A stretch of 64,000 nt of DNA from Tetmemena sp. SeJ-2015 (lineage: Eukaryota; Ciliophora; Spirotrichea; Sporadotrichida; Oxytrichidae). The DNA lies in the NCBI GenBank assembly GCA_027382625.1, contig JAJKFJ010021784.1, forward strand, positions 56,171 through 120,170, given 5' to 3'. Position numbers and translations under genes: made by a program. Shown here piece by piece: positions 8,427 to 48,097 of the stretch. How positions within the stretch are numbered: the stretch's first letter is position 1; each line of letters begins with the position of its first letter. The notes under the pieces were generated by a model that ran no database searches, was not told the origin of the DNA, and worked only from the letters and a program-made list of their open reading frames with translations.

Positions 8427-8599
8427 TACAATCAACAATAATTAATATACAAGAGCCGAAAATTAAATCTCTATGCAATCTATCTTCAATCTGAGAGCGT
8501 AGTGAAATATTTATGCCTTATTTCATGATAAAGATTCAAGTGAGAATGCATTCATTAATTATAAATTAATTGCTAACTCTTAAAGACTCAAAACACTTA

Positions 8600-32800: not shown

Positions 32801-33186
32801 TTTAAATTATTGGCCCCCAATATTAATACTTCTTTTGTATTTTTAAATTAAAATTTGTTTTTTTTGAACATTTTTTCCAAAATTAAAGCATTTTTTTATG
32901 ATTATCTGTTACCAATTTTTAATTTAAACAGGAATTTAAATTAATTTAAATTTTAAAAACCTTTTTTAGGGTTATAAATTAAAAGAATTAATTTTGGGAG
33001 TTATTATGGAAATAATTCTTAATTTTTAATAAGTTTATGATTTTAATAGATAATAATAGAGTGGTATCTGCCATTTATCTTAAGATTATTCAGGTCTAAT
33101 TCCTTCACAGATTGGAGAGAGTTTCTGACTGGAGGATACATTAACGCGGAAGCGTCACTGCTGTTCCTTCCTACCTTAAAACTCAT
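29813..33186 (-). CDS. Q/N/S-rich protein of unknown function
   Basis: Start ATG 33186 (MSFKVGRNSSDASALMYPPV), stop TGA 29815-29813. Three N-terminal pieces are visible: 33.06-33.19, 32.64-32.75 (IHKRNNSDALLASKEYNSKI) and from 32.50 kb downward (MRELYQEYTINSAQSIIQTA). Between the first two lies about 300 bp of extremely AT-rich DNA. The protein is low-complexity with basic patches (PPSKHIKKAKQKLDDHHPYG) and ends with FIENKLKMIETKQYFGPEQQ. No domain recognised. Overall composition is typical of the intrinsically disordered proteins common in ciliates. Confidence 0.55.
32760..33060. other. very AT-rich interruption in the Q/N/S-rich gene
   Basis: About 300 bp of homopolymer-rich DNA with G-runs (ggggtaaaaagtccggg near 32.77 kb) and no coding sign, between two minus-strand coding pieces. 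Probably a long IES. I did not find a convincing pointer pair. Confidence 0.45.
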
Positions 33187-33394
33187 CCTACCCTCTTTCA
33201 CTTACCAAATAAAAAAATTAATATGAATGACTTGAGTAACACTATATAGAAGATCCTGTTGGCTTTTGTTCCTCGAATGTGGCTACTGATGCTCATGGAT
33301 TTACATTTTAGTACGATTATAAATTTATCAATTTTAACTAAATCCTAGCAATTACAAAGCAGATTCACAATTCTTAGGAGTTATAAATTGATGA

Positions 33395-34735
33395 TCATTG
33401 ATTTTTCTTTTATAAAGTTTGCTTATCGTATTTCCTTAAAAGCCAAACTTTAGAAATGATATAGTCTATCCTCCTCTCCATCTTTTCATAAGAGGTGTCC
33501 ATCTTTTACTTATTCTTTTGATAGAGCAAGGGATAGACTAGCATTAAATCTATTAGAAGCCACGATAAAACCCCATCACTCAGGCAGAAACTCAAAGCCA
33601 TTAGAATTGAACACTTCATGAGAGCTTTAGTAGTTAGGCGAATGTCCTCTAAAGAGAGTACATCAGATAAATAAGCTTGCGCTCTTAGTGATACACTGTA
33701 AAAGGCTACCATCAATAAATAAGATAATCAAAGACTGAACTGTCTCAGTAGAAACTAATTCCAGATGATGCTCTGTGAATGAATTTGCTCCGTGCTATAC
33801 TTAGCTTGCCTCTGATATGAGCTATGGATGGCCTGAATTTACAGTCAATTCTGATATTGTTCTATAATCATCTCCTTGAGCGTTCTGCAGGAAACTAGTT
33901 TCCGTTGTGTCACTATAGAGTTAGATGAACAAATATTTTTGCAATCAAAGCAAGAATGTTGCTTACTTTTCATCGAAGGAAGAAAGATAAATCTGATTTA
34001 AGATCATCCCAGCTAAGGAAATGAATAATTATACGTATAATATTTAATATTTCTAATGAATAGTCCAAAAAGCAAAAGTAGAGAGATCAAGGAGTATTCA
34101 TAGAAAACAATTAGTACAAAGAAGATATTCACTATCCCGAAGATTTTCCCAGTCTGCTTGACGTTTTTCCACATTATTAAGTCAGTAACTATAATGGTCA
34201 CTTATATTGGGAAAATTACTTTCTTCTGGAAGATAGGTTGCAAGAAAGAGATAGTATCGAGTTTGTTCCATTGTATAGATTAAAATATTTTTACTTTCAA
34301 TATAATTGAATTTAAGTGTAAGAGTTATAATTAAGCTAAGAATCTGATTTTGTTTTTGAGAATTAAAGATCATTTGCACTATCAGAGTTCAATTGAATAG
34401 ATAGCTTGTAATAATATATTATAAACTCAGAGATCTCACTTCTTATCACATCATTTAATTTATCTTATATTTCTTTGAGAAATGGCGAAAGATGACGGGA
34501 AAAACAAACACTAAAGTAGTTAAGAGAGACAGATCTAATTTTAAAAATACTCACAGCTTTTATTTATTTGATCCCCAAAAATAACTACTTCCAAGGACAG
34601 CAATACATATAGCAGCAAAGTCTAACTCCTCAACAGACAAGGAAACAATTTCTTACTTAAGGAGGCTAGAACGACAACAGCTAAGACTCAGATGGAGGCA
34701 TAAACGATAACAGCAGCTTTCAACTAGCTCTTCAT
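33395..34735 (-). CDS. multi-spanning membrane protein, unknown
   Basis: Proposed ATG 34735 (MKSQLKAAVIVYAS) and TGA 33397-33395. Hydrophobic stretches include VLAVVVLASLS, TLLLYVLLSLEVVIFG, IFGIVNIFFVLIVFYEYSLI, SLLLLFGLFI and GVLSWLLIDLMLVYPLLY, then a charged tail (KMDTSYEKMERRIDYIISKV). An in-frame TGA at 34690-34688 and frame steps near 34.2, 34.0 and 33.75 kb have to be explained by IESs or errors. At least four or five TM segments; no family recognised. Confidence 0.45.
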
Positions 34736-34776
34736 GGAATGGGATTGCCTGATGAATCTTAATTGTAATCGAATGT

Positions 34777-35114
34777 TATTCTTAGATTTTTTGTTCTGGT
34801 ACTTAGAAATCATGTCTTCACAACCTGCGCACATCCTCACGTTTTTCTATTGTATGCCTAAATGTAATGTCAAAGGAAAATTATCAATTGAATACCTCCA
34901 CTTTTAATAGCTTGCACTGTGGTGCAGTTGTGGCAGAATACGTTTCCGCAAATCCTGCAATGATGTTTTCTGTAAAAGAATGTAAAATCCTTGTAGCACT
35001 TAAAGCACTGTCTCGCCTTCTAGTCAGGTACCTAGAGAAAAATAAGAATGAGTATTTTGTTACCCAGTGGTTTCTGTTGAGTGTCGCATCTTGATGCTTG
35101 GGATCAAAAGCCAT
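34777..35114 (-). CDS. PIKfyve/Fab1 segment 1 of 5: start and FYVE zinc finger
   Basis: ATG 35114. After removing a 32-nt interruption (GT..AG, also flanked by GGTA repeats) it reads NHWVPDQKARQCFKCYKDF then TFFYRKHHCRICGNVFCHNC, a full FYVE signature (WxxD, R+HHCR, paired Cys). After a 38-bp IES (34849-34886) it continues NVRMCAGCEDMISKYQNK, giving eight zinc ligands. FYVE fingers bind PI3P on endosomes. It ends at pointer GAATA (plus-strand TATTC, 34777-34781), whose partner is at 39230-39234; the join is in frame. FYVE followed by TCP1-like and lipid-kinase domains is the normal PIKfyve architecture. The alternative is that it belongs to the membrane-protein gene next door, which has a different frame and its own start. 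Confidence 0.75.
34849..34886 (-). other. IES inside the FYVE finger, pointer CAAT
   Basis: ATTG (plus strand) at 34849-34852 and 34887-34890. Removing 38 bp gives SGGIQQKNVRMCAGC with normal spacing between the second and last cysteine pairs of FYVE fingers. Confidence 0.8.
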
Positions 35115-35374
35115 TTAGGCAAGACCTCCAGCCCCTATTTAAGATTCATCATAATTCGTTCATGGCTTATAAAGTATGCAGAACTTAAGTGCAAGTGTAA
35201 AAATTAATTCAACTAACAAACAAGCAATATGTAGAGAGAGTTAACATCCTCCTTTTCATCTTATCTCATGAAGTTTGCTAGTAATTTCCGCTTACTATAA
35301 ATAAACATTAAGAGCAAACTAAGTTGATGAAAATCTGACGGTAGTGCTGATCAGAAATGCAAGAGGCCACTGGC

Positions 35375-38300
35375 TCAAGATTCGGTAATTGGTTTCTCTG
35401 CTTTAGGAGCTCCATCTTAGACCAGAAATGGTCTACTATATCTGCTGCCAGAAGTGAATCCTCTTTCTTCAATACTTCCAGTCTGTGACTGTGCTTCTCC
35501 AGCTCTTTTAGACGTTCTTTTCCTTACTATGGCATTGAATTTGCAGCCATCTAAATCAAGAATAACATTTAAGATCTTTGTGGGAGAGTAGAATCTGCTC
35601 TCGTTATTAGTGATTTTAAGGTACATATACGAATCAAGCTACGATAGTGTAAGTCTAGAGATTTCTCCAAAATGTTTCTAGATTAGCTCAGCTGAGAAGC
35701 TAGGCACTATATTGTAAACAGCCAGTAGGTTGATGCGGCGAGACTCTTGAGAGAGTAAGAGATCCATCTTTGAGAGCCAAGCATCTACGAACTGCTCAAA
35801 TGTAATGTTGTACTGTTGCTTCAATCCGGCCAGGCAGAAGTTTAAGAAAAACTCGGTGTTGAGCAATATCACTCTGTTCACGAAGGTTAAGGCCTGGGTA
35901 TAGTAGTTGGAAGTGGAGGGCATAGATTTTGTGGCGTTAAACTCTACTAGGTAACTGCAGAGCATAGTTACATATTCCTACATGGTAGTCAGGACAAAGT
36001 CTAGAACTTCGGGTGTGGCTTATGCTTATGCTTTCCAAAGCATGATGTGCGGAATTAGGACAAGGTTAAACTTTGTCTCGTACATACTTTGTGGGTCAAG
36101 GCTTCCTCCTTTTGAGTCTTCTAATTCACCGTCAATATCAGAGCCATCGCCGTTTTAGCTTTATTAAAGCCATTAAAAGAAAAATATTGAAGAAACAAAA
36201 CACTGAGTTTTTAAATTGATTGTCTTTCAGATTGAACTTCTGACAAGAACTTGGTGCCTGAATAAGTTAGTATCTACTAAATTTCTTCCTTTGAGGGGAA
36301 CAGATCCATGAGAATCATTTCTTGGATAATCTTAAGGAAGTCTATGACGATGTAGTCCTTGGTAAATTCTCCCTTTGCTGAAATCTTTTGGAAGAGTGTC
36401 TTCAAATTCTGAATGGATTTGTTCTCCAAAGAGACTGCTCTCACTATGAACAACCAGTACTAAACTATAACGGCATCTTAAATAATAAAAGATATCTTGC
36501 TTTTACGAAAGTTTGTATTCGATGATTGATATACTGAGATCTAAAATGACTGCAGAATCTGGTGCTATTATAAATAGGTTCTTGAGCATGTCTATTACAG
36601 CCTCATCTATAAGCTCCGATCCTAATTGCAACAAGTGGTGTAAGTTAATTCATTAAATTTAATTACTTGAGTTGAGAGTCTTGAAGCACTCTAAAATTAT
36701 ACTCTAGGAGTCAAGATTCTTCTCCAGTAATTGAGTGAGGTAGTTGATGAGGTTCCATATCAAATTTGGTGCCTGAAAAACCCCCATTATTGGGATAGTC
36801 TTCACAGCAATCACTTGAAACACGGCTGCATAATCTATCTGTCTGTTAATCTACAGGCTTTGAGTAATTTGATCCTCTTATTCGTTGCCAGACTCTTCAA
36901 AATTAAAGAGACTCTATTAAGCATAAGCCTAAGCTCGGGAGGGCTCTTGCTCTGACTTTTTAATTTAAGCATCGATTTCCTTTATCAATTCGTGAACACA
37001 TCGAGTGTAATCGTAAATTAGAACAGGGTCGGTTAAATTTCTGATAGTGTCAACTAGTATACGGAAGTAGCCTAGGAACCTACTCTTTGGAAGGAGGCGA
37101 GCCCATTACACCAAGATGTGAGCAAATCTACGTTGTAAAATTGGGCTCTAGAACTTATTCATCATTAAAAATTATTCTGATAGATTGAGTCTAGCACATA
37201 GCATATGTCAAATCTTTTGTCAGCTGGAATCTTGAGTTCTTTCTAGATCTTTCCAATAATGCCTGTCAGACTTAGCATAGCATCCTCAAACAGCTCGTCT
37301 TAAATTGGGATCTAGCCGCTGAAATATTTTGGAATGAGATCTTCGTTGATAAGTGAGTAGCATGATGGATAGAAATTTGAGAGTAATTTTTCAATAACCT
37401 GGTATGCAAGAGCATTAATCGGAGTTGCTGAATCTAAGTCAAACTCAGTGATGAAGTAACTCTCATTTTCCAGTTCAATAAAAGTCTCAGGCTCACTTTG
37501 CCAAAGTTCGATGTTCTCCCTCATAGGAAGGTAGTTCTGGACTATTAATTTCATCAGCTCTCTTGCTCCGTCTTTTCTGTTAGCCAATTTAGGATCAGAG
37601 GATCCTACCTCGGGCATGTCGAGGATATATCTGTACTAATCTGCCGCTTCCTGAATTTGAGGCTCGAAATTCTTCGACTTACTGGGTGAAACTAGAATGC
37701 CAACGGATAGGGCTGCTTTTTCGATGCAATGCTGATTATAGTCGATTGTATTTATGACTCTATAAAGGGAAAAGAGCGCCAACTTCTTAATCCTCTCTGA
37801 AAACAAGGCGCCTCTGAATAAAATGTTTGCTAGCAGCTCTATGTTAAATAATTAGACAATAACTTTAGAGATTAGATGTACTGCCCTAAACTTTCGTAAA
37901 CAATGAGTGCGTTAGCATACTAAAGTTCTTGAATATGCTTCAGTAGATTTTTGATTTGATCTTCAAAAATTCCCTTGAAATGCTCTGTCTATTGAGTTTT
38001 AGGCATCTAAGCTAATGACTCAACGCATTTAGAGTAAAAGGAAGTCTTCTCAATGAGTTGCTAAGTGGTTCTTACATATTGGTTATTCTTAGGTTCATTG
38101 ATCAAATCATAGAGGGAGAAACCGCATGCAATTACCAAGAGTAAACATTTGTCGAGCTTCTAAGCAAGATCAAAGAGTAATTCGTTGAAATTTTCCATTA
38201 CTACTCTTTAAGTAGGGTGATCGAAGATCATGAGCATTTGCTTCTCATTGAAGAATGTCCACAATTGATAGAGCGCATTTAGGTGTTCCCTGGCAACTTT

Positions 38301-38957
38301 GTGGAATTATCCTTTCTAAGTAGATAGCTTCTTCTTGTTTTGCTCTTTCATTACCTCAAGGTAAAATCCGAGAAAGCGCTAGATCTTTGGAATCTCACTG
38401 ATCTGAAGGTTATTCAAGTTGGCATAGATTTGTTGCAAAGTAGTTAACAGCCATTCATTAAGCCCGCTCCATTTGGCCGGAAAGTCATACTTCACAAGTA
38501 AGCAAGCTACTAAAGATAATTGGTCGAACGCATGCTGTCCTAAAATCACGTTATCTGGTTCCTTAATTAGATTCAATAACTTTGCCTTAATCTATTCCAA
38601 AAATTACTGATATATTAAATAGTTTGAAGCTTTAAAATCTGCATAATAGTCCTTAAGCTCCTCTGAAAGCCCTTGTGGAGCATTCTGCTTAAAGATCTTC
38701 TTGTTCCTGTGCATTTGTAGTACTCGAGTTAAGGAGTTTTTCATAAACAAAATTGCTTGGTATTGAAGTTGCTTATACTCAGCAGTACTCTACGCTGGGC
38801 CGTCATTAGTACCTATGATGAAGAGCAAGGCTAGCTAAAACTCTGGGTTAGGTTCACACTGTTTAGTAAGAAATTCAAGAGATTGGTTCCTGAGTGTTTC
38901 GTTCATCGACAACGAATTCACGAGCGCTATCTTGATCTGTTCAATGACAGAGTCCAT
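35375..38957 (-). CDS. importin-beta superfamily receptor (importin-11-like)
   Basis: ATG 38957 (MDSVIEQIKIALVNSLSMNE) to TGA 35377-35375. The N-terminus has the family pattern: an early helix pair, then LQYQAILFMKNSLTRVLQMH, LVACLLVKYDFPAKWSGLNE (the HEAT-repeat DFPxxW motif) and LQQIYANLNN. About 1,000-1,100 residues fits importin-7/8/11 receptors, which carry cargo through nuclear pores with Ran. HEAT-like amphipathic helices continue to the C-terminus (LDGCKFNAIVRKRTSKRAGE). A few frame steps (about 36.2, 36.5, 36.65, 37.85 kb) indicate small IESs. The whole gene lies between PIKfyve segments 1 and 2 and on the same strand. The exact subfamily is uncertain. Confidence 0.72.
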
Positions 38958-39078
38958 ATTTAATTAGCTCATCATTCTTCTTTCTACACTTCTTTCAAAT
39001 TCTAAATTGCTTAATCTTGCAAAAATTGTAATTATCTGCTCTCGGGAAGCATATATTCAATAATATTCTACCTGCATC

Positions 39079-39234
39079 ATATTCTGAAGATGCTGCATGT
39101 TAATCTACTGACTCTGATTTACGTTATTGGTAGTTGTTGAGAGTGCAGGAGCATTAACTGCAGGCTACTATTACTTCTCAGCTTTCTTCATTACTACTTT
39201 GCTAAGCACCAGGGTTTGTCTGTTAGCAATATTC
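39079..39234 (-). CDS. PIKfyve/Fab1 segment 2 of 5
   Basis: Minus-strand frame from pointer GAATA (39230-39234) to AATAT (plus-strand ATATT, 39079-39083). Encodes NIANRQTLVLSKVVMKKAEK then a Q/N/T-rich linker ending INMQHLQN. Joined to segment 1 it reads QNKKSKNIANRQ; joined to segment 3 it reads QHLQNISIEDLSNKYQK. Both joins keep frame. The linker itself has no recognisable domain, so its assignment rests on the pointers. Confidence 0.65.
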
Positions 39235-39295
39235 CTAGTTATCAAAAATGGAGACTCTAACAGATATTCAAATACAATCATCCACCACTTTAATA

Positions 39296-39541
39296 GTCAT
39301 CTATCTCATCCTTGATTTATCTGAGTCTATTGAGTTCTTCGACATCCTTTGTGTTTAGTCTCTCCTTATTCTGTTCTAGGCCATCGATTTCAAATTCGCC
39401 ACTTCCTCTATTGTGAATGGCGCTGCTGTTAAACTAATGATCTTTGAAGTAGTTTGAGCTCCTTTGGTGAGTCTGGATCAAGTTATTCTTGTTTTGGAGC
39501 TCTTTCTGGTACTTATTACTTAAATCTTCAATAGAAATATT
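39296..39541 (-). CDS. PIKfyve/Fab1 segment 3 of 5
   Basis: From AATAT (plus-strand ATATT, 39537-39541) to the 13-bp pointer TGAGATAGATGAC (plus-strand reverse complement at 39296-39308). Reads ISIEDLSNKYQKELQNKNNL, FKDHQFNSSAIHNRGSG and DVEELNRLRQIKDEIDD. The next segment repeats the pointer in inverted orientation at 39558-39570, so translation continues EIDDMDQDLKRDG in frame. Confidence 0.75.
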
Positions 39542-39557
39542 TATTCTTAAAATCATT

Positions 39558-40848
39558 TGAGATAGATGACATGGACTAAGACTTAAAGAGGGATGGTCTA
39601 AATCGTCTGCTAAGCGCTTTAGAGGAGGAGAGGTATGAGTACTCAGGCGGTTCAGTCTAGATAGACTCAGCAAACATGGACAAAGTCAACTTTGTAAGTT
39701 CCCTTCTTGAAGATAATCCTCTAATAGTAAAGGCTGAAAGACTTCTCAAACTTCCACATAAGGAACATAGTGCTGGATATCATGAACAAAAATGGCATAG
39801 ACCATGAGAAGTGGTCTTCTAAGCTACTTGAGTATGTGTCTACTGCAGTTGAGAGTGTCAAGCCATCTTCAAGACTGCTAGGGGATGAGATGAACTTCAA
39901 CAAGTACATCAAGATCAAGATCATCAATCATGTTGACAACTCTCGCTCAGCCTATGTTAAGGGAGTCGTACTTAGCAAGAATCTAGCAGATAAGCGTATC
40001 ATGAAAAACAAATCAAGGGAAAATCCTAAGATCCTTCTACTTAAAGATAGTCTGGGAGGGCAGACATCAAACTCAGGAAATGAAAGCAACATGCTCATCT
40101 CAGATATCTCAACAGTCATAGACTAGGAACAGTTCCAAGTCAAAATTATCAACGAGAAGCTTAGACAAGTTGAGCCAGACATCCTCATTCAATTAAAGAG
40201 TAGTTTGTATTTTATTCTAATAAGGACTATTCTATATTGTGGAGAAGGATGTGTCTTTCTAAGTGCTTGAGCAGCTAAAGGACGCTGATATAATTGTGAT
40301 TAGCAACCTTGACCTTAAGAAAATGAAGAGAATCGCAAGATACACACAGACCATCATCTCTCCTTCTTATAACGTTATCGACCAAAACTTCGTCCTTGGT
40401 CGCTGCAAAAACTTCAAAGTAGAAAAGCCCTACACTGCTAATCTTCCAAACCAAAGAGGGATGAAGGGAATGGGAGGAGCTTATTCTAACAACAACATGC
40501 TTTAATTTATTTTAACTTATAAGCTTGCTGGCTTACAAGTGGGTGCAGAGGTAACTTAGTCTGTACTCGAAAACAATGCAAAAATGATCTCAAACGAGAG
40601 GAGTCTCTTATTCTTTGAAGGTTGCAACCCTGCTCTTGGGTGCACAGTTTTATAAAAAATTATCAATTTTACTGAGTGGTAATATCAGCACTGAAATTGA
40701 TGACTTGAGAAAGGTTAAGCTTGCTCTTAAGGATATGTTAGCTCTGGCTAGAAATGTAGTCCTGGAGAGATCATTCCTCATGGACGTCAATACTGTGATT
40801 CCGAGATCAGTCCTGGATGATGGTTCCATTAACTCTTCAGAGTCTCCA
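39558..40848 (+). CDS. PIKfyve/Fab1 segment 4 of 5: TCP1/chaperonin-like domain
   Basis: Starts with TGAGATAGATGAC (39558-39570) and ends with TCTCCA (40843-40848). Contains MNKNGIDHEKWSSKLLEYVS, FNKYIKIKIINHVDNSRSAY, VKGVVLSKNLADKRIMKNKS, ENPKILLLKDSLGG, ILIVEKDVSFQVLEQLKDAD and LLFFEGCNPALGCTVLLSGN. This is the Cpn60/TCP1-like domain found only in Fab1/PIKfyve lipid kinases within this architecture. It contains two IESs (40187-40235, 40648-40666). One frame step near 39755 is unexplained. Confidence 0.85.
40187..40235 (+). other. IES in PIKfyve, pointer ATT
   Basis: ATT at 40187-40189 and 40236-40238. Removing 49 bp gives VEPDILIVEKDVSFQVLEQL, as expected from Fab1 homologues. Confidence 0.8.
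40648..40666 (+). other. IES in PIKfyve, pointer TTTTA
   Basis: TTTTA at 40648-40652 and 40667-40671. Removing 19 bp restores EGCNPALGCTVLLSGN, the conserved FFEGCxxxLGCTxxLxG motif. Confidence 0.88.
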
Positions 40849-40963
40849 TAATTTTTAATTTTTATCACGAAATACTTTGAGAATTTGTAAATCTATGATA
40901 GATAAGAATTTCAAACATGATCGATCATGCTTTCAATTTTCTCCCCTCCGGCTAAATAATATC

Positions 40964-43900
40964 AATAAAAAACCTTTTAATTTTCTAAATTAGATAGCAG
41001 ATGGTCTTCTCTAGTGTGCTTGCCTGTCATAGCAGGAGTGACAGCATTAGAATAGGTGATGTTTACAGTCTCATTGATCTCGTCATCGTCGTCACTGTCT
41101 CCTTCTTCTTGTCCTTGAGCGGTTGTTCCCAGACCTCTGGCTGCAGAAGCTCCAGCGAGCCCATGCTTCTCTGTGATATTGCCACTAACTATGGCTGGCT
41201 CTTTCTCCTCCTAGATGCACATACCCACAAAGTAGCTCTTCATAGCCTGCTTGAATCTCTGTTTATACTTATCGGGATCCACGATGGTGGGCTCCTAGCC
41301 TTTGACTAGGTTCTTAAACTTGCTCTCAAATATCTTCTCAAGAGTGTACTGCTGAACGAAGTCGATAATTCCAAACCTGACTTTCTTATGCTTCTTATCA
41401 ATGATAGTGAGAAGTGAGTAGTCAATGATGTTAGACTTAGATAGACAAAGAGTGTCGTTGTTTATGCAAATGTGTAGAATGCGGTTTATGGTATAGCGAA
41501 TTGGTAGAGGCCTTCCGTTGAATTATAGTAGGAAATTATTGTCGTGGAGGACAGTCTTCTCCTAGCTTTGCACAAAGCGGTTCAATTTTGAGCCTTTCAA
41601 GTCGTATCTGACGATGTGGCTCTCATCCTCTGGCTTTATTCCAAAGTTCAAGTTCTCAGTAATGAACAGGTACTTCAATTAATGAAGATATATATAAGCT
41701 ACTTCTTTACAGTCTTGGTTTTTCCATTCTGTTTGGTCATGATCTTGATCTTGTATGCTCCTAGGATTTTGCAAAGTGCGCATGGATAGTTGTGGAAGAA
41801 GGACTTGCAAAGGTAGTCGAAGTACTGGGAAGCGAATTCCAGGAACATCTTGAACTCGTTCTTACGAAGTTCCTTATATACGTACTTGTCGTCATATGAC
41901 TTATAGAACTTAGACTTGCTCTTGCCTCCACTTACATTCGACCACTCTACTGTCTTGAGTAGCGACTAGATGAAATCATACTGGCTGCCGCAATAGAATC
42001 TGCGAAGAGCTTCAAACTTCTTGGGGAAGTAGATCTTCAACTGGAAGTCAACCTTAGGAAGCGACAACTCTTAAATTTATGGAAAATAAGATGCAATATT
42101 AAGAAGTATCTTGCTTTAGAAGGTGGTTAGGATTCATGATGAGAGTTTCCTTTGGCGACTTGATGCCGCAGAACTCCTGGGGCTCTGAGTTGGTGAAATT
42201 GGCTGTGTTGATTCCTTAATGGTTGAGTGCATTCAGGTTGTGGGAAGTGGTGCTGCCTAATTAAGGTGTACCGTTGTTTAGTGGGATGTTCATAGTAATG
42301 TTCTGAGTGCTGTTTCCCATAGTGGGTGATTTGAAGTTAAGATGAAAAGAGAATTCAATAATTTTATACATGTGCAGCGTTGAGACTTTCTCTCATTGAG
42401 GGGACTGTAGGGTGGTTCTGTTCAATGAGGTGGTTGAAGTGGTGCTGCTGGTCTTGATTCAAAATGTCTAAGTTTTGGGAATCATCGTTGCTCATTACCT
42501 AAGAATTAGCAGCAATTAGAGTCCTGGGTGGTGAGAGGATGTTCTGTGCAGCTGCTTGCTGGTTTTGGTTGGTCTATGGCTGTTCGAAGTAGTAAACATT
42601 TAGCACCTTGAGAATCTGGTCTAACTCTGAGCAAGTGTTACTGTAAAATTCGCTGTCCAGATAGTCTCTAGAGAGCTATGGACATATCTTCCCTTAATAG
42701 TCATTCATGTAAATTACAAACTTACCATTTATATTTTATAATAGAATTGATTGTAGCTGACCTTCTTGGTTTTGTTCTTGCTAGAGAGCTGAACTCCAGT
42801 GGTGAACTGAAGTGAAGTTTGCTTGAGTTTGGCTGAGTTGCCGTTCTTTATCATCTTAATAGAGAGGTCCTCCTTGTCGGTGGAGAATTTTACGATGAAC
42901 TGAAGTCGTTCTCCACACAGCAGCTCTGTCTCGATCTAGTGAGCTGACAGCTCTGCGTTGAAGACATCGTTCTTCCCTAGCAGTTTAATAGTTTCATCTA
43001 CTTAGTGCGCTCCTATGTAAGTATTTTTGGTCTGATAGATAAGCAATAAGAATAAGATTATAGAGATAATATAAAAATGATACTGAGCCTGAGCTGCAAA
43101 GCCTTGCATGTTTATTGCAGAGTCTCTGATACCCAGAGGTAGCTGCTAAGTGTCTGTGTTAGAGTTGCTTCCTGGGAACTGACTCTTAAAATAATTAAAG
43201 AGAATCTGATGTCTGGGGTGTTGTCTTAGTCCCTTAATCTTCTAGGATATGTCCATGTAGTTTTGCTTAATCTAAGTTATATTCACACACTTTAGTATTT
43301 AATCATGGCCTCCTTGTAGATGTTCGAAGCCAGCACAAATGAAATGATAGAGCCAATGTCTTTGTCCTTCACTGGAACATACAGGTTGTCTGTACCCAGT
43401 GGGAGTCCCACGAATCCTTCTGACAGCAGCTCCATCCAAGATTTGAACTCTTGCTTTGTGTTCTACACTCCCAAAACCTAAAACTAAAGAAAATTGCATG
43501 CAATGGATTTCCTCTTTATTTCTAGCATCATAGGCCCTTGAGTAGCAGAAAGCATTGAGTCTGTCAATCATAACTTGCACATTACTCTGGATTATCTGCT
43601 TGATTGGCTCGCTGTTTTGAGTTGCCTGATTTAGGGCCCTATTTACTTGGATGGTGCAATGTTCATTTGAGTCTGGTTCATAGTAATTGTCTGATTGAAG
43701 TCCTAAGTATTTGCTGAGATAAGTTCATGAAATATGAGAACGTAAGAATATTAGTGGAGTTCTGAAACAACATGTCAAATCAGGTGGTTAAGAGAATCGG
43801 GTTTTGAAATTCTTGAGGTTAGAGAGAGTTTAACGATCAAGGCTGCTGAGCTGCTGTCCATGCCCTTAGGTATTTCTATCCACAAAGTTAGTGTTTAAGA

Positions 43901-45237
43901 AGAAGATAGATAATTGAGAGTTGCCCATACCACCGCTGCCTATTCCTCCGCTGCTGCCTCCTCCAAGGTGATGCTGATCAATCCTAGAAGCTGAGTTATC
44001 AGCAGGGTTATCATAAATTGCTGCGTTACTTTGCGATTGGTCAAGTCTATCCTCGGGTGAGGTGAGTTGGTGTGGTTACTGTTTCAGTATTTTCATCCTC
44101 ATGCTTAGCAGAACAAGCAAGAGACAGGCGATTCGAGAGATCTCCTCCAACAGCTTTTAGAAGGTGAGAAGATTCACGAATACCTTCCTCTCTAGGAAAA
44201 GAGTGCCAAATATGGAGTCTACTTCATGGAGGGGTAAAGTCACTATCTAGATGAAGTTAGAGATTTCTTTCTCAAGCTCCTTGAAACGGAGTTTAATCAC
44301 CTTCAGGAACTCAATGAAGAGTGGAACGTTTGTTCCAGAGGCAGTGACAAGATATAATTATTGAATGACAGCCTTCTGTGTCTCTTTGGAGAGGAAACTG
44401 CGCTTCTCTTCCTTGATGAATTTGAGAATGTCAGAAATCCTGTTCTTGAGTTGCTCATTTCCAGCATGGATGCCTGCCTCTATGTTTAGCTTTCTTCTAT
44501 CTATTTCAAGCTTGAGAGTCTCTGCTGTATCCTGGGTCTTTGGTTGGATCATCTCAATTGTGAACACATCCAGTGGAATGAACTTGAAAGTGATCTACAC
44601 TCCCTTGGAGTACTGGAACACCCTGGATATCTCCCTCAAAGACTTATGGTTGCATTAAAAATAGCAGCTGATTTGTTTCTGGGCAGGTTGAGTAACTTGT
44701 CTCCGTTGTAGAAGAATTGCTCCAGGAATCGAGCTGTGGAGTACTCGTAAAGGAGTCTCTCATGGCCACCTCAGGAGTGACTACTTTGTTGCAGACGTTG
44801 CAGAAGCCAAACATCTTAGTCTCACTCTTCTTCTGGGGCTTCTACTGCCTGGGCTTGATGGTTTGAGTCTTGTTCTTGGCCTCATTCTTCTGGATCATGT
44901 TATCTGAACTTCGATGCAGCCGTCCTTGTGGTAATACTGGTGAAGTGCTTTACAAGGGGCTCTTTGCAGTAGTCACAAGGCTTTCTCCGTTCTTGATTAG
45001 ATTCCTTAGGAAGGACAATAGTCAATATAAATGTAAAGTAAGTGAATAATTAGTCTTGTCACCTGACTTGCCATTCTCCTCCTTCTCATAGAACTTCCAT
45101 TTCTCAAACAACATCATATAATAGTAAGTCTCTTTCTTGGGGCAGCCGCAGACCTTGTCAGTGAACTGCTTGACCTTCTCCTCAGTGGCTTGCTAGTTGT
45201 TGAGCATCTGCTGTTGAGGGACAGTAGCCTGTGGAGA
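40964..45237 (-). CDS. PIKfyve/Fab1 segment 5 of 5: Cys-rich region and PIP kinase domain
   Basis: Begins at TCTCCA (plus-strand TGGAGA, 45232-45237), continuing SSESPQATVPQQQ in frame from segment 4, and ends at TGA 40966-40964. Cys/His-rich block: CDYCKEPLVKH (44.95 kb), FGFCNVCNKVVTPEVAM (44.8 kb), FLEQFFYNGDKLLNL and CNHKSLREISRVFQYSKGVQ, matching Fab1's central region. Kinase N-lobe: GGKSKSKFYKSYDDKYVYKE then MFLEFASQYFDYL (41.8-41.95 kb). C-lobe: HIVRYDLKGSKLNRFV, NIIDYSLLTIIDKK and RFGIIDFVQQYTLEKIFESK. The enzyme makes PI(3,5)P2 on endolysosomes. An N/Q-rich linker fills 42.1-44.1 kb. Several IESs or introns remain inside (about 41.68, 42.08, 43.0, 43.7, 44.65, 45.02 kb). Confidence 0.88.
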
Positions 45238-45502
45238 AGCAACTGAGAAATACTCTTTTAAAATTGTTATAAAAAAATATCTCTACTATGAAGAAAAATT
45301 GACTTCCTAATCTATAAATTATATTTGTTGTAAATAATCTTTAACATTAAAATAAAGAATAAAATGTATTAGTTTATATTTGAAATGTTGTGGGGGTCAT
45401 TTGGTTCCTGCATCATAATCAAATACATAACATCCACATATACCAAATTATCTCTATGCTATTTAATAAAGTAAATTTAATTAAAAGAAAAGACTGTCTT
45501 TC

Positions 45503-48097
45503 TCAATCTGACTCTTCCTCATCGTCTTCCTCTTCATCTTCGTCTTCATCGACCTCTTCACCCTCTGGCTCTGCTATATCTCCATCCTCCTCATCAAACA
45601 GCATGGAGTTCGCTTCAATGTTGGGAGTCTGGATGAACTGCATCAGGTTCTCAAGAGAGGCACCTGAGATGCTGGAACAGAACTGCTTGAAAACAAAGTT
45701 TGCCACCTCTCTCAGGAAGCTCTGCTGCTTAGTAAGCAGAGAAATCAAGAAATCAAATAGTACCTGTTAAGCTTCACTCTGTTCCTCATTGCCCTTGGAA
45801 CTTTGCTCCTTCTTCTGTCTCTTAGCACTAGACTGGCCCTTGTCACCAGCAGCTTCTCCAACTCTGAGCTTCTAGAAAACAGTCTTCATCTCCTCTATGT
45901 CCTGCTATGACTCTTCTCCAGCACCCTCTGGACCTGGTAGCAATACCAGCAACAACAAGTTATGGAGTAGCAACTCAAAGGCTAGGAGCTGCTTGAACTG
46001 AGGCTTGAGTTTGAGAGCCAACTCGTCACTCTTGCTCATCTGCTTGCTGAGGTTGCTTCTTTTAGTTGTGATGTGCTCCTTTATGAAATCTAGTTGCTGC
46101 TTGTGGTAAGTAGCAATAGGGTTAGCGAACTTAACAGCATGACGTTGGATAGAGTTGTTGAGTTCAGAGATCCATAGGTCTGTTGAGTTCTTCAAGCCCT
46201 TGGCTAGCTCACCTACCTTGATCTTATGGAGCATTTGAGCCAGTCCGAACAACTTGAACTGAGCGAGAGAGCAGATGTCATTGCTCTGCTTCTCTCCCTC
46301 ATTAAAATGAATCGCAATTTAATCTTATTGCTGAAATAGGTAGCCTTGACAAGTACGTCTATCAATGAGCTGATACTCTCAGCAGTGATATGGTTTCTGA
46401 ACAATTGAGGGAAGCTCTGGTTAAGAGCGAAGGTCTTGATCAAGTCTTTGCGCATGGCCTCATCAGTTGGCTTCTCGTTTTCACTATCACTCTCATTATG
46501 TTCCTCCTCTTGCTTCTCTGGGTTCTTTGCCTCCTCAGCGGTCTCTTCGGGGAAGTGCTCATCAACATTAGGAGAGTTGAATTGAGCAAGCAGAGACTAG
46601 AAGTACTCAGTGATTTGCTCTTTCTCTAGTCTGGGAGTGATCACCTTGAGTAGGTCTTGGTTACGCTTTGTGGAGAATCTGATGTTGCTGTTGGGACCGA
46701 AGGATTGCTTGAGGAGCTTGAGAGAGAAGGCACTTGACAGATTAGAGCTAGAAATGAAGGAAGTGAGAGCTTCCTTGAGTTGCATAGCAGCCTCGTGGAG
46801 TTGGTTCTTCTGGAGAGACACATTCTTAACTAGGAGTTTCATGAAATGCAGTGAGAGGAGAGAATCGAGTAGCTGCTCTCTGGCCACTTGCTTGGTGTCC
46901 CAAGCTTGGACGTTACGAAGAATGAGGATAGTGAATCTGAAGGCGATGTTGAGGAACTTCAGCTTGGTTAGACTTTTGAGCTCCTGGTAGTACTCCTCAT
47001 TAAAGAGATACTCCACAACTACTTCCTTCACTAAGTTCTGAACAAGCTTGGCCTTGTCAGCAGTCTTGGACTCCTGTGATATCTCGTTGAGGAGAAGTGG
47101 GAGAGAGGAGTGTAGTCTGGGGTAGAGATAGGTCTGGCGCTTAATAAGTCCGAAAATTAGTTTCAGGTTCTTCTTATCAGCCAAAATCTAAATCATTAAC
47201 ATAAGTAGGAAGGATTAAATCTTGTAGTTGAAGACATCTGCATACTCTCCTTTGCCCATACCCTCTGACTGTCCTTAGTGATAGACCTCCTTCAGCCTAA
47301 GGAATAGAGCAAGCATATTTGAGTCCACAAGGACGGTAGTCTTGAAGTCAACACCTGATTTACTTTCCTCTCCTTTCTAGACAACTAGTTTCTCCATCAC
47401 TATTTCGATGGTAGATAGACTTGCCTATTTATTAGGAAACATTAATTCTCAAAATTAAATGAGGATATCATCACCTCTATGGAATATTATCCTTGGTGAT
47501 TGCGAGAATCTTGGAGATGATTGCTGAGACAGACTCTTGAAGGAAATCATGTTGCTCATACAGCTCCACCAAGCACTCAACTATCACTTTCAAGACTTTA
47601 GTGTTGATAGACTAGCCACTGCCGAACACCTTTGCTTCAACGCAAGCAGATACGTTCATCATTCTGCCCATGGCCATGTTATTAGCCTCTGATGATTTCA
47701 TGGCGTTGCTGCTCTTAGTCTCATTGAATAGGAATTTGAAGTAGCGCTCGAAGTCAACTTGAGACTTGAACTTACTCAAAACGAGTACTGAGGCAAGGAA
47801 GAAACCCTGCTTCACTGAATGGTTCTCACTGCAGAGACCTCTTAACAAACGCTTGAGTGTGTAGTTCAAGTCTGCTGACACCTTCTCACCCAAGTCACCA
47901 GTCAAATACTTCTTATTAAGAGCCTTTTCTGCTTTCTCTTGAATTTTGGAGGTGGAATCAGTTGAAGCCTTGCGACCGGCCACTGAGCCAATAGCCACTA
48001 GAGTTGAGACAATCTTGTTGGAGGCTGTCTTGATTTGGTCCACAGTGGAGGGTGGAGTGAGTTGAGTGAAGTATCCCAAAAAGTCTTTGTCTTCCAT
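45503..48097 (-). CDS. Pol5 / MYB-binding protein 1A family nucleolar protein
   Basis: ATG 48097 to TGA 45505-45503. Near the start it has DLNYTLKRLLRGLCSENHSV then KQGFFLASVLVLSKF, the signature of DNA polymerase V/MYBBP1A proteins. These are HEAT-repeat nucleolar factors needed for rRNA production, not true polymerases. A helical-repeat body follows (LKLIFGLIKRQTYLYPRLHS; QLFRNHITAESISSLIDVLV) and a late motif TPNIEANSMLFDEEDG leads into a highly acidic Asp/Glu tail, as in homologues. Frame breaks near 46.59, 47.20, 47.45 and 45.77-45.90 kb imply small IESs. Antisense of the acidic tail looks like a poly-Ser frame and is ignored. Confidence 0.8.

Follow-up and report, generated by a model that had tools for sequence, protein, structure and literature searches.

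A PIKfyve gene scrambled in ciliate germline DNA, its TCP1-like piece inverted and an importin-like gene lying between its pieces

The window analysed here is a stretch of 64,000 nucleotides from contig JAJKFJ010021784.1 (assembly GCA_027382625.1), from a spirotrich ciliate, probably a hypotrich. With a probability of about 0.87, part of it represents a PIKfyve gene in scrambled germline (micronuclear) form, which would be joined from at least five and probably six pieces (M1 to M6), with an importin-like gene placed between M3 and M1. That PIKfyve is scrambled in this germline DNA, with a piece inverted, has good support. It is an example of the gene scrambling known in spirotrichs and not a new phenomenon. 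In the genes of the window TAA and TAG are read as glutamine. The assembly that was searched comprises 146.2 Mb in 5213 contigs, two of which (C4412 and C1371) were compared with the locus.

During development of the somatic nucleus, M1 (minus strand), M2 (plus), M3 (minus), M4 (minus), M5 (plus) and M6 (minus) would be put together in this sequence through recombination between short repeats (pointers), M2 and M5 being inverted relative to the rest, and the nonscrambled internal eliminated sequences (IESs) would be removed. The importin-like gene would go to a chromosome of its own, as in a nested locus, or would share a two-gene chromosome with PIKfyve, staying upstream of M1. By analogy with Oxytricha, the joining would be guided by RNA copied from parental somatic chromosomes.

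Pieces of the gene and their order in the germline

The pieces are listed in the proposed order of joining.

34788..35114, minus strand: M1, ATG start (35114) and FYVE finger of PIKfyve, recognised by Pfam and the motif WVPD..RKHHCRICG, present in C4412 and C1371; GT..AG introns 35063-35032 and 34895-34858; candidate 3' pointer CAAAAA at 34793-34788
34576..34774, plus strand: M2, probable linker piece, inverted beside M1, suggested by C1371 conservation, synonymous differences and codon score; pointer candidates CAAAAA (34576-34581) and in-frame GAAT (34771-34774)
39079..39234, minus strand: M3, linker, assigned by frame and codon score only; GAAT(A) from 39234, AATAT at 39083-39079
39296..39541, minus strand: M4, linker, assigned by frame and pointer; AATAT start at 39541, 13-bp pointer TGAGATAGATGAC at 39308-39296
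39558..40848, plus strand: M5, TCP1-like domain, inverted, recognised by Pfam and PDB; pointer at 39558-39570, intron 39694-39727, IESs 40187-40235 (ATT) and 40648-40666 (TTTTA), end pointer TCTCCA at 40843-40848
40962..45237, minus strand: M6, Cys-rich region and phosphatidylinositol phosphate (PIP) kinase through the stop codon; start pointer TCTCCA at 45237-45232, IES 45055-45024 (direct repeat GACTA)

The FYVE, TCP1-like, Cys-rich and PIP-kinase segments lie in reversed order in the germline, with the TCP1 piece inverted. The pieces are thus neither consecutive nor in one orientation, and the arrangement is repeated on C4412 and C1371. When joined, they would give the domain order of PIKfyve/Fab1, that is FYVE, TCP1-like, Cys-rich and PIP kinase. 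The positions and strands of a preliminary description held for the FYVE finger (minus), the linkers at 39234-39079 and 39541-39296 (minus), the TCP1 piece (plus) and the Cys-rich/kinase piece from 45237 (minus), as did its canonical domain order, which was borne out by Pfam FYVE, Cpn60_TCP1 and PIP5K matches. The product of the first four pieces of the earlier five-piece model matched FYVE at E=5e-18 and Cpn60_TCP1 at E=3e-12; after addition of M2 and a corrected IES the values were 5.7e-18 and 1.5e-14. PIP5K was matched by two kinase frames (E=1.7e-21 and 3.6e-11). In a PDB search with the TCP1 stretch the PIKfyve structure 7k2v was the top match, and the Cys-rich region was recognised by eye against the Moneuplotes crassus protein P0001. 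M1 to M5, with M2 included, form a single frame of 673 codons without stops. The model was made without an automatic frame-jumping gene finder, whose jumps proved spurious.

The best protein match of the joined five-piece protein was PIKfyve from Moneuplotes crassus, with 28% identity, 82% of the query covered and E=1e-156, obtained with the kinase part patched by small IESs that were rejected later. This homologue is a single protein of 1807 amino acids, its longest contig being 6092 bp, and like the product proposed here it carries FYVE at the extreme N-terminus, followed by the TCP1-like domain, the Cys-rich region and the PIP kinase. It differs in that identity is only 28%, the contig is 6092 bp long and the linkers have no visible similarity. 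No Oxytricha or Stylonychia was found among the names of the protein matches listed, many of which are nameless. A protein search of the assembly returned TCP1-type matches only at the locus and on C4412, besides one weak match (E=7e-4, 28%). No other PIKfyve gene was found in the assembly.

Interruptions between direct repeats identify the DNA as germline. The conserved motif PDILIVEKDVS reappears once a 49-nt unit flanked by ATT repeats is taken out, and the conserved motif GCTVLLSGNIS once a 19-nt unit flanked by TTTTA repeats is taken out. Both units are IESs. The 49-nt IES replaced a 25-nt intron initially placed at 40.2 kb. In the kinase piece, clustered single-base differences from the allelic contig C4412 break the frame (43600-45300). 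Small IESs were considered there and rejected, as C4412 shows single-base differences instead, with extra bases at several frame breaks; the breaks are either base errors or allelic frameshifts.

C4412 is colinear with window 32903-47460, the whole locus, at 97.3% identity. C1371 (10,000 of its 10,923 bases compared), which spans the importin-FYVE side, covers window 38344-32997 at 95.8%, and two more blocks extend to 28375. Because both contigs repeat the arrangement, the window is not a chimera.

Pointers and the probable sixth piece

Chance sharing of pointer-like words was estimated with somewhat under 1500 random pairs of 65 bp, by the longest in-frame word shared. A word of at least 5 bp was found in 70% of the pairs, of at least 6 bp in 30% and of at least 12 bp in none. 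The 13-bp word TGAGATAGATGAC, which closes M4 and opens M5 in frame and on opposite strands, therefore alone counts as pointer evidence. The pointers named in the preliminary description do exist and keep the frame, but none besides this one beats chance. The joins other than M4-M5 are argued for by domain order and the Moneuplotes homologue, and M5-M6 by domain continuity with Moneuplotes. The in-frame words common to M1 and M2, CAAAAA and AATAAC, are at chance level; CAAAAA was preferred because C1371 differs in the M1-side copy of AATAAC. For M2/M3 there are four candidates in frame, two of 5 bp (CTTAG, ATTTT) and two of 4 bp (GAAT, TATT). GAAT was picked for its position at the M2 end, by choice and not as a result.

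The preliminary description counted five pieces and overlooked a probable sixth, M2 (34576-34774, plus strand), which the FYVE piece would join first. The 193 bp of 34582-34774 have 6 differences from C1371, and the 130 bp of 34440-34569, immediately to the left, have 28. The noncoding spacer 33780-34440 is low too (29 differences in 661 bp), so conservation of M2 alone is not decisive. In the plus frame of M2, five of the six codon differences are synonymous. One minus frame over M2 likewise has 5/6 synonymous, but it holds three TGA codons. The codon score of the plus frame (5.6) is the best of the six frames; in noncoding DNA nearby, no frame free of TGA scores above 3.6. A direct GAATA join of FYVE to the 39.2-kb linker, as first described, is doubtful, because M2 probably intervenes and GAATA (34781-34777) would then lie outside M1.

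M2 could instead be part of another gene. A plus-strand gene starting at 34492 was tried and rejected: a GATC join breaks the frame; a TTTTA join would keep it in the window, but over bases that by inspection are not conserved in C1371; and 34474-34540 has a negative codon score whichever of the six frames is read. Taken together, these points fall short of a strict exclusion.

It is very probable that the FYVE piece is part of PIKfyve, because the position and type of its FYVE finger match that protein; its N-terminal position and sequence resemble the Moneuplotes PIKfyve by eye. Thirteen FYVE stretches (the window and 12 of 21 genome matches; 4 of the 13 are this gene) were compared with 65 FYVE queries, namely those among 89 proteins from the homologue search in which a motif search found FYVE. 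The finger of M1 was strictly the best match for 48 of the 65, with one tie and 16 against.

The enclosed gene and the alternative readings

The features of the enclosed gene are as follows.

35266..38957, minus strand: importin-like gene (weak label) of 1147 codons, recognised by codon differences and a C-terminal Pfam match
37862-37852 (TTATT), 37176-37160 (AATAA), 36517-36460 (TAC), 36213-36158 (TAAAA) and 35571-35511 (TAAA): interruptions of this gene
36666-36622, minus strand: intron of this gene

One intron and five IES-like insertions thus interrupt the gene. Of its codon differences from C1371, 91 are synonymous and 4 non-synonymous (35266-38344, the 83% compared); the corresponding counts for C4412 are 45 and 5. 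The synonymous excess indicates that the gene is functional and under purifying selection. Two of its IESs diverge strongly in one haplotype (17/56 and 9/61 positions). A real gene does therefore occupy the gap, as the preliminary description held, but its stop lies at 35266 rather than 35375 and its frame is interrupted. The name importin-11-like fared less well. The C-terminal frame alone scored 28.9-30.2 bits with Pfam TPR_IPO11, above the cut-off of 27, whereas an early joined version from the frame-jumping gene finder scored 26.7, under it, and the final protein of 1147 residues as a whole matched no Pfam family at E<=0.1. No PDB match was found up to E=10, and none among 7999 candidates scored. 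A structure model of the first 364 residues was all-helical, with a mean confidence (pLDDT) of 51, too poor for a fold search. The label is accordingly a tentative one.

The enclosed gene lies upstream of PIKfyve on the same strand, its stop codon (35268-35266) being 151 bp from the PIKfyve ATG, and this gap differs at only 2 positions from C1371 and 4 from C4412. Two arrangements have to be weighed. The importin-like gene may become a nested chromosome of its own that is excised from the PIKfyve locus in development, for which the chances are about even. In Oxytricha embedding is frequent, with 1,847 of 15,811 contigs given as embedded only (PMC5940158), and the gene is under purifying selection. 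Against this, no breakage-site mark was found on either side, though we know of no such motif for this species, and the tandem orientation and short conserved spacing suit a two-gene chromosome equally. That arrangement, with both genes on one somatic chromosome and the importin-like gene and FYVE piece as one continuous retained segment, has a substantial though less than even probability. Nothing intact would then be cut out during PIKfyve assembly, and the statement in the preliminary description that rearranging PIKfyve means cutting out another intact gene would not hold; a same-strand gene 151 conserved bases upstream of FYVE could share its somatic chromosome. A two-gene chromosome within a nested locus is described in PMC9797194. 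However, Table 1 of that paper gives one gene on 68.5-76.1% of the contigs that bear telomeres in three species, no contig of the Moneuplotes homologue exceeds 6092 bp, and a conserved gap is compatible with breakage, as breakage sites can be retained or be a few bp long (PMC10901763). The separate chromosome is slightly preferred because most spirotrich chromosomes carry one gene. Querying the assembly with M4 returned two germline contigs only, without a somatic copy. Contigs examined for size were all at least 10 kb and a PIKfyve-only chromosome, estimated at ~6.5 kb, might go unrepresented; its absence from the assembly therefore carries no weight. Processing of the same germline segment in two ways, into an importin-like-only chromosome and a two-gene chromosome with PIKfyve, is unlikely; if true, the scrambled junction would decide gene dosage.

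Another reading, in which the FYVE finger forms a small gene of its own and the start of PIKfyve lies at some other place, is very unlikely. M1 could continue to a TGA at 34688, and pointers of 5-6 bp prove nothing. But all three codon differences from C1371 in this extension are non-synonymous, the opposite strand is coding-like, and the position and type of the finger fit PIKfyve. An assembly artefact or chimeric contig, to which the frame breaks at 43.6-45.2 kb, whether single-base errors or allelic differences, might point, is scarcely credible given that the arrangement recurs on C4412 (32.9-47.5 kb) and C1371 (~28.4-38.3 kb).

Several points weigh against the scrambled six-piece gene as proposed. 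Four of its five joins have pointers of 4-6 bp, as expected by chance, and the linkers M2 to M4 have no recognised homologue among the matches listed. Between 36.3 and 40.1 kb C4412 hardly differs from the window and gives no independent support there, and C1371 ends at 38344. Nor does every IES appear to evolve fast: the IES at 36158-36213 shows no differences from C1371, nor does that at 36460-36517 from C4412, and the spacer rate is close to the coding rate of the enclosed gene (98/2831). The pieces, the IESs whose removal restores motifs and the arrangement on further contigs were observed; the joining, the membership of M2, the pointers besides the 13-mer and the somatic products are inferred from germline DNA.

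Known loci and further observations in the assembly

Nested ('Russian doll') scrambled loci have been published for Oxytricha trifallax and Tetmemena (Braun et al. 2018, PMC5940158; Feng et al. 2022, PMC9797194). As described there, they likewise have out-of-order and partly inverted pieces, pointer repeats and the locus of another gene between two pieces. The present locus differs in having one nesting layer and in that its embedding is a proposal drawn from germline DNA. If the importin-like gene is separate, the arrangement would be of this published type. No published case of a scrambled PIKfyve turned up in the one literature search made on this question, which listed a single unrelated paper. 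With its domains verified, the locus exemplifies germline scrambling that combines an inversion with an interposed gene. It also illustrates that differences between haplotypes may serve to split coding pieces from eliminated DNA and to flag overlooked pieces without somatic data.

A perfect 14-bp palindrome, CATGATCGATCATG, lies at 40916-40929, in the gap that separates the TCP1 piece from the PIKfyve stop and in which a chromosome end is expected. It was considered as a breakage motif and rejected, having no second exact copy in the window. A minus-strand frame at 33415-33654, with 8 synonymous and 3 non-synonymous differences from C1371, is a coding neighbour of the locus.

Elsewhere in the assembly, three contigs of 16-21 kb (C298, C334 and C508) terminate in C4A4 repeats that are exactly 20 bp long (L005, L006 and L008). 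Ends of this kind are typical of hypotrich somatic chromosomes, and the three contigs are possibly large somatic chromosomes within the assembly. Contig C126 carries internal C4A4 telomere-like repeats (L001 and L002) at 8437 and 12791, 4.35 kb apart, which resemble telomere-bearing transposons.

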